In this document: positions 8,522 through 33,107 of the stretch, piece after piece
Layout: each line of letters begins with the position of its first letter
Numbering within the stretch: the stretch's first letter is position 1
Assembly (NCBI GenBank): GCA_937870825.1
Contig: CALMZO010000151.1
Location: forward strand, 62,001 to 126,000
Direction of reading: 5' to 3'
Origin: an uncultured Chloroflexota bacterium
GTDB lineage: Bacteria; Chloroflexota; Anaerolineae; UBA4142; SHND01
Length of the DNA stretch: 64,000 bases
Program-made: the position numbers and the translations under genes
The notes under the pieces: generated by a model
Database searches by the model: none
What the model was told of the DNA's origin: nothing
What the model saw: only the letters and a program-made list of their open reading frames with translations

Positions 8522-8525
8522 CACT

Positions 8526-8573
8526 AAACCTGCGAGGTTGGCGCTCAAGTTCATCGCAAAACCTCGCAGGTTT
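8526..8573. repeat. inverted repeat after the giant TPR gene
   Basis: Perfect 14-bp arms at 8526-8539 and 8560-8573 with a 20-nt loop, five bases after the TPR stop codon. The core AACCTCGCAGGTT recurs at 22657-22685 and 30009-30045. It could end the upstream transcript, but no strong T-run follows, so I call it a dispersed palindrome first. Confidence 0.75.
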
Positions 8574-8585
8574 GTATTTGATGCC

Positions 8586-18674: not shown

Positions 18675-18954
18675 ACAAAAATCTCTCGCCCCAAATTCGG
18701 GACGAGAGATTTGCCTAAACCATCTCCCGCGGTACCACCCGCGTTGTCATGTAAAGCAACAACATGACCGCTTTGTCGGATACGAGCATATCCGCGTTCT
18801 GTTAACGTGGAACGAATCCGTTTCAATCTATTTTCGCCGCAGCGATTTCAGTGAAAAGCTCGGGAAGGATTTTCGACGCGATTCTGTTACGCGGCTCACA
18901 ACAACCCGCGCTTGCTGAAACAAAAATCTACGCTTACTCGTTTCCGTCGTCGCT
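18675..18954 (-). ncRNA. T-box riboswitch leader, probable alanine specificity
   Basis: The conserved T-box core GGGTGGTACCGCGG is on the minus strand around 18741-18728. It can pair with CCCG in the 5' arm of a terminator hairpin (14-bp arms 18712-18699 and 18692-18679) followed by TTTG, the standard antiterminator/terminator switch. Stem I closes with AGCGA (18954-18950) pairing TCGCT (18845-18841) and holds an AGTA motif on its 5' side. On the 3' side a GA dinucleotide precedes GCT (18859-18857), the position expected for the specifier codon. The TGGT bulge fits a tRNA ending ACCA. The downstream gene alaX matches the alanine reading. Confidence 0.88.
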
Positions 18955-18964
18955 TGTGCCGTCA

Positions 18965-22656: not shown

Positions 22657-22685
22657 ACCTGTCAGGTTTCGGAAACCTCGCAGGT
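22657..22685. repeat. CCTCGCAGGT-type palindrome
   Basis: Imperfect inverted repeat (arms 22657-22669 and 22673-22685) with the same core as 8526-8573 and 30009-30045, placed between the MBL start and the SET gene. Confidence 0.65.
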
Positions 22686-22848
22686 CTCCAAACCGATTAA
22701 ATTTCTTTAGCGCTAACCTTAACATATCGCCGCGCGCTTTGTCAAGGGCAGTTTGGCGCGCGCGCGTTATTTGCATTTTTCCTCCGCGAATTACACGAAT
22801 CTCACGAATCGCATACAATCTTGCGACAACTCTTTTCAAGGAATCCAG

Positions 22849-30006: not shown

Positions 30007-30047
30007 ATAAAAACCTCGCAGGTTTCAGAAACCTGCGAGGTTTTTAT
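30007..30047 (+). terminator. terminator after pgl
   Basis: Perfect 17-bp stem (30009-30025 with 30029-30045), 3-nt loop, T-run on the 3' side. It is built from the AACCTCGCAGGTT palindrome also found at 8526 and 22657, so a mobile-type repeat appears to serve as a terminator. Confidence 0.88.
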
Positions 30048-30242
30048 GCTCGTTGCTGCGTTTCCCGCGCGCTGCTCTTTGAAACGCCATATAGAGATTG
30101 TGAAACGCGGTGATTTGTGGATACAGATTTTTGTGAGTCTTCATTCGATGCGCCTACCTTTTCGCGGCGACGAGGGGGGACACCCCCCTCGACCCCCCGC
30201 AGAAAAACAGCAATGCAGAATGCAGCAACCAGAATCCAGAAC

Positions 30243-33107
30243 TCAGGAATACAAGCCAGGGGACAACACTCGAAAACCGATAAAGTCGAACATGTAGACG
30301 GGCGACTTCCTAGTACGGTACGCACAGCGGGAATTCGTCCCATCATTGTTGAACGAGCCGCCGCGCACGACGCGATATTTTTCATGAGGAATATTTGAGG
30401 ATGTCTCACCTCCTTCATACACTTGATACCAGCTGTCGGTCCATTCCCAAACATCGCCGCTTGCATCATATAACCCAAACGGAGACAAACCGTTACGGAA
30501 CATGCCGACGGGCGTGGGTTTCAAGATGCGGCTCTCATTCGTATTGGCGCGCGCGGATTCAAATGTTTCACCCCACGGATATTCATTGCCGTTCTCGCCG
30601 CGCGCGGCTTTTTCCCATTCCATCTCACTCGGCAGTTGAAACACGCGTCCCGTCACCGCCGACAACCACGCGCAGTACGCTTCCGCCTCGTACCAATTCA
30701 CGCCCACGACGGGCTGCGCGGCATTGTTCGAATCGGGGTCATTCCAAAACGCGGGACGGTCAAAGGGGCGCTCGAAAACTTTGGCCGCGCGTTCGCGCGC
30801 GACATCATCTGGCAGTTGCGTCACCTCTTGCCAATACCTTTGCCACGATGCAGTGCGTTCATACCTTTGGCGATATTCAGCGAGATTTTGCTTTTGCAAT
30901 AATGAGCGCGTGTACATCCAGTCGTCAATCGCGCCTGCGTGCGCGTCCGCGCCGCCTGCTTTCCATTTCTTGCCGCCTTCACTCCACCAGCGTTCATTCT
31001 TGTAGCCGTCTTGCTCGACAAAAAGTTTAAATTCCGCGTTCGTCACGGGATAGCGTCCGATGGCATACGCGGGCAGGGCTTGGCGGCGCTGTGTGGTGTA
31101 TTCATCGGGATACGCGCGTTTGTCTTTTGGGTCGCTCCCAAAAACAAATTCCCCCGCGCGCACATTTTCCATTGGCGGCACAATCGCCGAAATGCTTTTT
31201 CCCTCGAATGAAAATTGTTGCGAGACAAATTCAGGATGTCCCAAGTCACCAAGCGCAAGTCCCGCGTCAATCCGCGATGGCATCCACACGGAATCGTCGC
31301 GCATCCGCGTGAGCAATTCCGCTCGCACGCGTTCCGCCAACGGCGCGAGTTCCTTGCGCGTCGCGTCCGCTTCCGCCAACGCGCGCGCGGCGAGCGGCAA
31401 ATTGTCGCGTTTCACCGTTTCGATAAAGCGCGTCGACTCTGCCCCCGTCATGCTTGCTGCAAGTTGCGCCACCTGTTCCCAATGCGTCACCGGCGGCGGC
31501 GGCAGTTCTTCTGGGATTCGAATTCGTTCATGCCAAAAATCGAAACGCTGCAACACCGCGTCCACGCGTCGAAATGGTTCCGACATTAGAAACAATTCGC
31601 GCCAAAATTGCCACGCGCGCGAATTCACGCGCCATTTGTCCGTCAAGTTTTCTTGTTGCGCGAATTTTTGCGCGAGTTCGCGCGCGGCAAAAAATTCTTG
31701 CAAGAGTTGGTGATGAAACGAAATGATGGTGTTGGGTTTTTCGCCGTCACATTCTAAAATTTGCGCGTTCGTCCCGACCTCCAACAAATCGTCCAATGTC
31801 ACCGGCGCGGGGAGAGAAACTTGCGCGGCTTGCGCGTAGGTCAGACTGCTGCCCTCGCCCTTTTGCTGCATCGCATATCCCAAATGTTCGAGCGCGCGCA
31901 ACAACGCGGGGCGCGTCGTATTTTTGTCCCGCGTCAACGCGGCGGGCGCGCGTTCCTCTTTCAATTCATTCTCCAGCGCCTTTTCAGAAATGGACTGAAA
32001 CAGCGCTGCGCGGCTGTCGGTAAATTTTTCGCCTTCGCCCGCGCGTTCGGCGAGCAAAGAAAGCATGTACGGATTCTGCGCGAGCTTGTCGAAACGGTCA
32101 TTCCCGCGCTGCAAACGTTTTTCAAAAGCGTCCCACAACGGCGCGGCGCGTTCTTGAAATTTGAGTTCAAAATATTTTTTCATCTGCGCCGGATCGAGTT
32201 CCTGCACATGCACTTCGGGCAAATACAACGCGCCGTCATATTCCGCCGAACGGCACGTAAAGACCGCCCAATTCGGGTCATACAACCCGCGCGCCCACGC
32301 CGCCCATTTTTCAATCCGCGCGGACAAATCCGCATGCGGCATCTGATTCACGCCGTCCAAAAGAAAACACACTTGCCCGCGTCCCACCGCATCGCCAAAT
32401 GATTCGCTCGGCGCGTGATTCGCCCATTTCTTGCTCAAAAAATCTTCGGGCGAATGTTCTGCCGAATTAAATTCAAACAAATTCACAAAGAAGGGAATCT
32501 TGCCGGTCAACGGATTCCGCATCCGTTCCACCGCCAAATCGAACGCGAACCGATGCAGCGTAGTCGTCTTGCCCGCACCCGGCGCGCCGAGAATAATCAA
32601 GCGCGTTTTGTTATGTTCCATCAGCGCCGCGCGCAAATCAGGAATCGGCAGCCCCGCCGCGCTGATACTCTGGTCGCCGCGCTGCTTCAGGCGTATCTTG
32701 GGGTCGAACGGACTCGGCGGCTCATTGTGCAATGTTCCGCGCAGCGGCAAATAATCGCGCGCCCACTGCGTAAAGCGCTCGCCAAACACAAACTGCATCA
32801 GAAAAACCGTTTCGCGCCGCAGCGGCTCCGCCATCCCGCGCCCCACCGCCGATAGCGCCATCAAGGCGTTGGGCATCACACGCACTTGTTGTCCATTCCC
32901 TTCCAAAACAACCACATCACGTTCGCGTCGTAATGTTGCCTTCAAATCCGCAATCGCAACCACGATTTTGTCGATGCCCCGCTCAAAATCTGCGACACCC
33001 ATACCCGCGGTGATATTCACGGTCTTGTCGCCCGCGACAAAATCCGCCGCAACGTAGAGTGTGCCGCTGCTGATATTCATAGAACCAGAATCGTTTTCGT
33101 CTGCCAT
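30243..33107 (-). CDS. NACHT NTPase with C-terminal FGE-sulfatase-like domain (NLR-like)
   Basis: A 954-residue soluble protein. Residues 1-35 are a Gly/Asn-rich beta segment (VAGDKTVNIT) like those at the front of bacterial STAND proteins. A small helical domain (~40-125) follows. The NACHT domain has Walker A GAPGAGKTT (174-182) and Walker B VCFLLDGVNQM (246-256), with helical regions to ~640. Residues ~644-953 form a formylglycine-generating-enzyme (SUMF1) fold: 'GRYPVTNAEFKLFV', 'VNWYEAEAYCAWL', 'LPSEMEWEKAARG', 'GNVWEW'-like 'GDVWEWT' and 'RVVRGGSF...RCAYR'. The catalytic Cys pair of true FGE is missing (only Cys928 near the site), so this part probably binds a ligand or protein. Such architectures occur in predicted immunity or signalling proteins. 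It is monocistronic, with a good promoter. Confidence 0.88.
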   Translation of the reverse strand: MADENDSGSMNISSGTLYVAADFVAGDKTVNITAGMGVADFERGIDKIVVAIADLKATLRRERDVVVLEGNGQQVRVMPNALMALSAVGRGMAEPLRRETVFLMQFVFGERFTQWARDYLPLRGTLHNEPPSPFDPKIRLKQRGDQSISAAGLPIPDLRAALMEHNKTRLIILGAPGAGKTTTLHRFAFDLAVERMRNPLTGKIPFFVNLFEFNSAEHSPEDFLSKKWANHAPSESFGDAVGRGQVCFLLDGVNQMPHADLSARIEKWAAWARGLYDPNWAVFTCRSAEYDGALYLPEVHVQELDPAQMKKYFELKFQERAAPLWDAFEKRLQRGNDRFDKLAQNPYMLSLLAERAGEGEKFTDSRAALFQSISEKALENELKEERAPAALTRDKNTTRPALLRALEHLGYAMQQKGEGSSLTYAQAAQVSLPAPVTLDDLLEVGTNAQILECDGEKPNTIISFHHQLLQEFFAARELAQKFAQQENLTDKWRVNSRAWQFWRELFLMSEPFRRVDAVLQRFDFWHERIRIPEELPPPPVTHWEQVAQLAASMTGAESTRFIETVKRDNLPLAARALAEADATRKELAPLAERVRAELLTRMRDDSVWMPSRIDAGLALGDLGHPEFVSQQFSFEGKSISAIVPPMENVRAGEFVFGSDPKDKRAYPDEYTTQRRQALPAYAIGRYPVTNAEFKLFVEQDGYKNERWWSEGGKKWKAGGADAHAGAIDDWMYTRSLLQKQNLAEYRQRYERTASWQRYWQEVTQLPDDVARERAAKVFERPFDRPAFWNDPDSNNAAQPVVGVNWYEAEAYCAWLSAVTGRVFQLPSEMEWEKAARGENGNEYPWGETFESARANTNESRILKPTPVGMFRNGLSPFGLYDASGDVWEWTDSWYQVYEGGETSSNIPHEKYRVVRGGSFNNDGTNSRCAYRTRKSPVYMFDFIGFRVLSPGLYS

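Follow-up and report, generated by a model that had tools for sequence, protein, structure and literature searches.

Closest described systems

NACHT and nSTAND proteins joined to C-type-lectin (CLec) domains have been described as targets of diversity-generating retroelements (DGRs) and proposed to act as antigen sensors (Dore et al., 2024; PMC10907252); in DGR 3 of Thiohalocapsa PB-PSB1, the NACHT targets are duplicated and the reverse transcriptase (RT) is disrupted in the reference (PMC10907252). DGRs also diversify FGS domains, in ternary conflict systems (Kaur et al., 2020; PMC7159879). DGR targets require a GC-rich hairpin after the initiation of mutagenic homing (IMH) site (PMC3240598). 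Here, a gene encoding a NACHT NTPase fused to a domain of the formylglycine-generating enzyme (FGE) type is examined in a 64,000-nucleotide stretch of an uncultured Chloroflexota genome (the window; contig CALMZO010000151.1, positions 62,001 to 126,000).

The window gene is likely a DGR-diversified, NLR-like receptor, akin to the immune receptors of plants and animals, that lost its diversifier. A first-pass annotation, made from the sequence alone, had drawn the DGR parallel as an analogy and had seen no other defence gene adjacent. The parallel holds and goes beyond analogy, the gene being homologous to and collinear with DGR target genes; the view of an isolated gene does not hold, as a DGR remnant, made of a hairpin and the 5' stub of an RT, lies less than 200 nt from the stop codon.

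Architecture of the NACHT-FGE protein

The minus-strand gene has an ATG start, preceded by a GAGGT ribosome-binding site, and runs for 954 codons with zero internal stops. Its parts are:

30243..33107 (-), NACHT-FGE protein, 954 amino acids, DGR target gene (open reading frame and translation, Pfam, family of 15)
32613..33107 (-), residues 1-165, N-terminal region in which a short beta-like Gly/Asp motif (ADFVAGDKTVNI) precedes a helical linker leading to NACHT (none of the known effector domains; structure model unreliable)
32166..32600 (-), NACHT NTPase domain, residues 170-314 (Pfam PF05729, E 2e-8; motif positions; invariant columns)
30264..31166 (-), residues 648-948, FGE-sulfatase/C-type-lectin-like domain without the two catalytic cysteines (Pfam PF03781, E 3.3e-51; PDB matches)

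Both Pfam matches exceed the curated cut-offs, and in the family of 15 the FGE domain is found in every member and NACHT in 14. The P-loop domain of STAND/NACHT proteins is complete, with an intact Walker A (GAPGAGKT from residue 174) and an intact Walker B core (LLDGVNQ from residue 249). Cysteines occur at positions 247, 285, 453, 812 and 928; Cys928 stands alone in the C-terminal loop, where we take the catalytic Cys pair of FGEs to lie, and the pair is absent from that loop. Sequence matches in the PDB include FGEs and TvpA, a variable protein of a DGR (2y3c; E 1.2e-5 across residues 818-947). The first-pass description of a NACHT NTPase with a C-terminal FGE domain devoid of the Cys pair is thus borne out by Pfam, the Walker motifs and the Cys inventory, and its reading of this C-type-lectin-like domain as a putative ligand sensor gains support. 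The best matches in PADLOC are weak (mad8, E 0.002; PDC-S60, 0.05), and the NCBIfam EruA score of 24 bits falls far under the cut-off of 1000.

The N-terminal region, for which a short effector or adaptor (residues 1-130) had been proposed, did not yield one. Residues 1-165 carry zero Pfam domains, and a profile of the region recovers only N-termini from members of this NACHT-FGE family, spread over six genomes, with no separate partner protein bearing it; by Pfam and this profile, the region holds none of the effector domains (nuclease, protease, TIR, etc.) expected of Avs/bNACHT systems. The suggested structure model, built by AlphaFold from eight sequences, seven of them distant, has a mean predicted local distance difference test (pLDDT) score of 56 and a predicted template modelling score of 0.42, and is uninformative at the N-terminus, where pLDDT is <50. 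One relative (G009) bears DUF4062 at its N-terminus, so N-termini are swapped within the family. As to the proposal that the gene has its own promoter, a TTGACT-16-TAAAAT site is present upstream, at 33167-33140, but such promoter-like sites are at chance level (3 found vs 1.9 in shuffles).

The variable region

As judged by homology and position, the FGE active-site loop that has lost the catalytic Cys pair is a DGR variable region (VR); as in DGR targets, it closes a gene for a protein of the C-type-lectin fold, at the 3' end:

30261..30374 (-), VR of a DGR target, RVVRGGSFNNDGTNSRCAYRTRKSPVYMFDFIGFRVLS (codon register with relatives' VRs and a template region, TR; variation on TR adenine codons)
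30261..30281 (-), IMH-like 3' end of the VR (ATCGGTTTTCGAGTGTTGTCC); the exact 20-mer also terminates the VR of a gene in a sister species (G005:C61)

When eight VRs were aligned in codon register with the TR of a relative from the same order (G008), codons whose first or second base is A in the TR showed a mean of 4.6 residue types, vs 1.9 at other codons (p=6e-5). The window VR and its closest counterpart, from G005, differ at 15 first and second codon positions, 12 of which fall on TR adenines; such adenines make up 25 of the 62 positions when the G008 TR serves as a proxy (Fisher p=4.7e-4). The IMH of the window VR reads GGTTTTCGAGTGTTGTCC and, with ≤2 mismatches allowed, its 20-mer occurs once in the host genome, namely in this VR. 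The VR assignment rests mainly on homology, position, the IMH, the hairpin and the RT stub.

The DGR remnant downstream

On the coding strand, the VR ending in ATCGGTTTTCGAGTGTTGTCC is followed by the stop codon, a TTCTGNN-rich tract, a GC-rich hairpin placed after the IMH as in DGR targets, an RT stub and a palindrome:

30198..30242 (-), pyrimidine-rich TTCTGNN-type short-repeat tract, from stop codon to hairpin (sequence, comparison of loci)
30171..30191 (-), GC-rich hairpin/cruciform CGAGGGGGG TGT CCCCCCTCG, 3' of the VR (DNA fold z=-4.0; found at the corresponding position in G004, G005 and others)
30049..30144 (-), 5' stub of a DGR RT, 32 codons (96 bases): MKTHKNLYPQITAFHNLYMAFQRAARGKRSNE (tblastn, DNA matches, relatives' RT N-termini)
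30007..30047 (.), perfect palindrome where the RT breaks off, flanked by the convergent NACHT-FGE and 6PGL genes (fold z=-11.8; similar units at 8525-8574 and 22657-22688)

The stub opens with ATG AAG ACT CAC and stops abruptly at the palindrome; nothing else of the RT remains at the window locus, which has no TR in cis either. Searching the window by tblastn with an intact DGR RT from the same genome returns the stub as the top match (E 2e-4, 43% across 35 amino acids), and it closely resembles the N-termini of RTs that stand behind relatives of the window gene, e.g., IKTFKHLYPQITAFENLYRAFRGAARGKRSHPDVA in G004. At the DNA level, the stub region matches G008:C96 (75%, E 8e-8) and G004:C44 (70% across 319 nt, E 3e-30).

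The repeat tract is a recurrent feature of such loci. At 20 FGE gene ends in DGR-type loci, lag-7 self-match is 0.51, vs 0.31 at 109 other gene ends (p=2e-9); in this first set, lag 7 is the strongest and other lags show no comparable excess. The tract was noted in the window at 30198-30242 (-) and at FGE gene ends in L119, L182-L185, L189, L195-L198, L230, L042, L056, L058 and L083. A claim of heptad repeats was rejected on 19 further Chloroflexota VR genes, where the tract is repeat-rich and lacks period-7 specificity. A term search of PMC3240598 found no mention of short repeats between the stop codon of a VR gene and the hairpin. The palindrome (ACCTCGCAGGTTTC...) recurs in the window, at 8525-8574, 22657-22688 and 30007-30047, with 6 half-site matches vs 0.35 expected, and is probably a repeated terminator or REP (repetitive extragenic palindromic)-like element. 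Elsewhere in the window, a T-box leader lies at 18695-18959 (-) (Rfam RF00230, 94 bits).

Relatives and their DGR cassettes

Relatives were sought in 99 related genomes. Full-length ones come from a genome of the same genus, G001, with two copies (48-50% along the stretch that aligns best), and from one of the same order, G008, with a tandem pair (48% and 37%); G004, G006, G009 and G012 hold further relatives. The first-pass annotation had held that homologs always sitting in a metabolic operon would refute it, and this is not the case: several close relatives sit within DGR loci. The order VR-spacer-hairpin-RT found in the window recurs behind relatives at G001:C251, G008:C96 and G004:C44; Avd lies 3' of the RT in G001 and G008, with the TR next in G008, where this one TR accounts for the VRs of three target genes (adenine-site to other mismatches 21:6, 28:6 and 28:6). 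Set against this target-RT-Avd-TR order, the window locus is the same cassette minus the RT after codon 32, Avd and the TR. In the G004 cassette, Avd is truncated, most of it being lost, and no TR was found, which argues that cassette decay is not unique to the window locus. The VR genes at G001:C149 and G005:C61 have the hairpin and lack an RT behind it. A P-loop is present in 8 of the 19 VR-bearing targets from independent DGRs of Chloroflexota, so the architecture is common in the phylum.

The G005:C61 locus (L230, 1827-4032) holds a CHAT (caspase-like) gene with a C-terminal FGE domain, interrupted by a stop codon; its VR-tract-hairpin unit is 81% identical to that of the window across 211 nt, and the remainder of the gene differs. 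In G056 and G087 (e.g., L191 and L192), eight places per genome match the NACHT-FGE protein, mostly as open frames of ~1100-1300 amino acids, and the two N-termini read there look, from their sequence, like class III nucleotide cyclases; G087 yielded no RT, and the one in G056 failed to score as DGR-type. An empty-site comparison located PEPCK in four congeners, with none of its window neighbours within the stretches around it, and so gave no insertion site.

A second DGR in the host genome

The host assembly (7.2 Mb, 95% complete, 446 contigs) holds two RTs only, on C364 and C249. The C364 RT was rejected as a partner acting in trans, its reading frame resembling, by sequence, the RT of a group II intron and including an HNH segment. 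C249 carries an intact second DGR (L119, 5219-8300, (-)) composed of an FGE target, Avd (NCBIfam DivGenRetAVD, above the cut-off), a TR and an RT; this TR and its VR differ almost only at adenines. The C249 TR matches just the 5' half of the window VR (81% over 59 bp), and the C249 DGR has a TR and an IMH of its own, different from what the window VR calls for. The assembled genome has no cognate TR for the window VR, and with the IMH 20-mer occurring nowhere else, the VR is probably fixed.

Competing explanations

That the receptor was once diversified and then lost its diversifier is the reading we favor, with several observations weighing against it. The window VR compared directly with the proxy TR of another genus differs at 10 of 26 A vs 21 of 76 non-A positions (p=0.21, not significant); this can be ascribed to the missing cognate TR and to high background divergence, and is expected if the cognate TR differs from the foreign one. 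Some related VR genes (L184, L230) have no RT directly behind them, and several flanks stop at contig ends. The neighbourhood of the NACHT-FGE gene yielded no effector or partner gene. Finally, the host assembly, at 446 contigs and 95% completeness, leaves room for a TR or RT elsewhere. An unlikely alternative is that the window VR is still rewritten in trans, either by the RT and Avd on C249 or by a TR/RT missing from the assembly. The intact FGE-Avd-TR-RT system on C249 and its partial match to the window VR speak for such rescue, as does the trans action inferred for some Thiohalocapsa loci (PMC10907252).

Decay could also extend to the receptor, which would then be a non-functional leftover degenerating, like the RT, into a pseudogene. 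The RT cut to 32 codons and the vanished TR would fit this, as would the stop-split VR gene in G005 and the G004 cassette with its eroded Avd and undetected TR; yet the receptor frame has no stop in 954 codons, its Walker motifs are intact and a GAGGT site precedes its ATG, making this explanation quite improbable. An enzymatic FGE domain under NACHT control, active in sulfatase activation or in EgtB/OvoA-like oxidation, is the least credible of all and already largely refuted: the domain resembles EgtB, OvoA and FGE in sequence, but NCBIfam equivalog scores are far below cut-off (120 vs 360 for EgtB), the active-site loop is hypervariable among relatives and the missing Cys pair contradicts the catalytic role that the first-pass annotation had named as the counter-case to its own proposal.

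A proposed mechanism

For a receptor separated from its diversifier, the following course may be envisaged. The specificity of the VR would have arisen as an adenine-rich TR supplied sequence by retrohoming, within a cassette of the order target(VR)-hairpin-RT(-Avd-TR). The FGE/C-type-lectin-like domain would display the VR loop, where the active site of an FGE lies, as a surface that binds the ligand; if STAND/NLR proteins are a guide, ligand binding would release the NACHT NTPase, which could then exchange nucleotide, oligomerize and signal via the N-terminus or a partner protein, the output probably being a defence or cell-suicide response. Everything beyond RT codon 32 would have been lost in the window lineage, leaving the sensor, its specificity once DGR-generated, now probably frozen.

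Tentatively, this may be a case of an adaptive receptor turned innate, in which a specificity found by the DGR became fixed through the disappearance of RT, Avd and TR, with the receptor still under selection, and in which the VR-tract-hairpin unit was swapped between receptors, NACHT-FGE here and CHAT-FGE in the sister species, whose DNA is 81% identical over just that unit. An isolated-looking NLR-like gene is here tied to a hypermutation machine, and shows what is left after the machine's loss. Should the receptor indeed have stayed under selection without its diversifier, specificities would be fixed in the strains that carry them, and their ligands could be searched for directly, more easily than with a still-varying receptor, and the ligands of DGR-diversified NACHT sensors would become a more testable question.

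Comparison with known systems

Like the targets of Thiohalocapsa PB-PSB1 DGR 3 and DGR 6, the window protein has a central STAND/NACHT NTPase and a C-terminal FGE/CLec domain with the VR; those targets, too, often have an N-terminus without a known domain and are often duplicated, as in G008. By contrast, only 32 codons of the window RT remain, neither TR nor Avd is present, no peptidase effector is adjacent and the host, by its nearest named hit probably one of the Anaerolineae, belongs to a different phylum. As in the FGS effectors (PMC7159879), the C-terminal FGE/FGS domain carries the VR and other domains are N-terminal, but those effectors mostly belong to vWA-MoxR systems, none of which was recognized beside the window gene. 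With the bNACHT/Avs antiphage STAND proteins, the window protein shares an NLR-like NTPase with a C-terminal sensor; unlike them, it has no effector domain that was found, and its sensor is an FGE domain rather than repeats. TvpA of Treponema denticola (PDB 2y3c) has the same FGE-type C-type-lectin fold with a VR at the C-terminus. To our knowledge, TvpA has no NTPase domain, unlike the window protein. The mechanism is not new: the window gene adds to a published kind, the DGR-diversified NACHT/STAND-FGE proteins, and is set apart by its decayed cassette.
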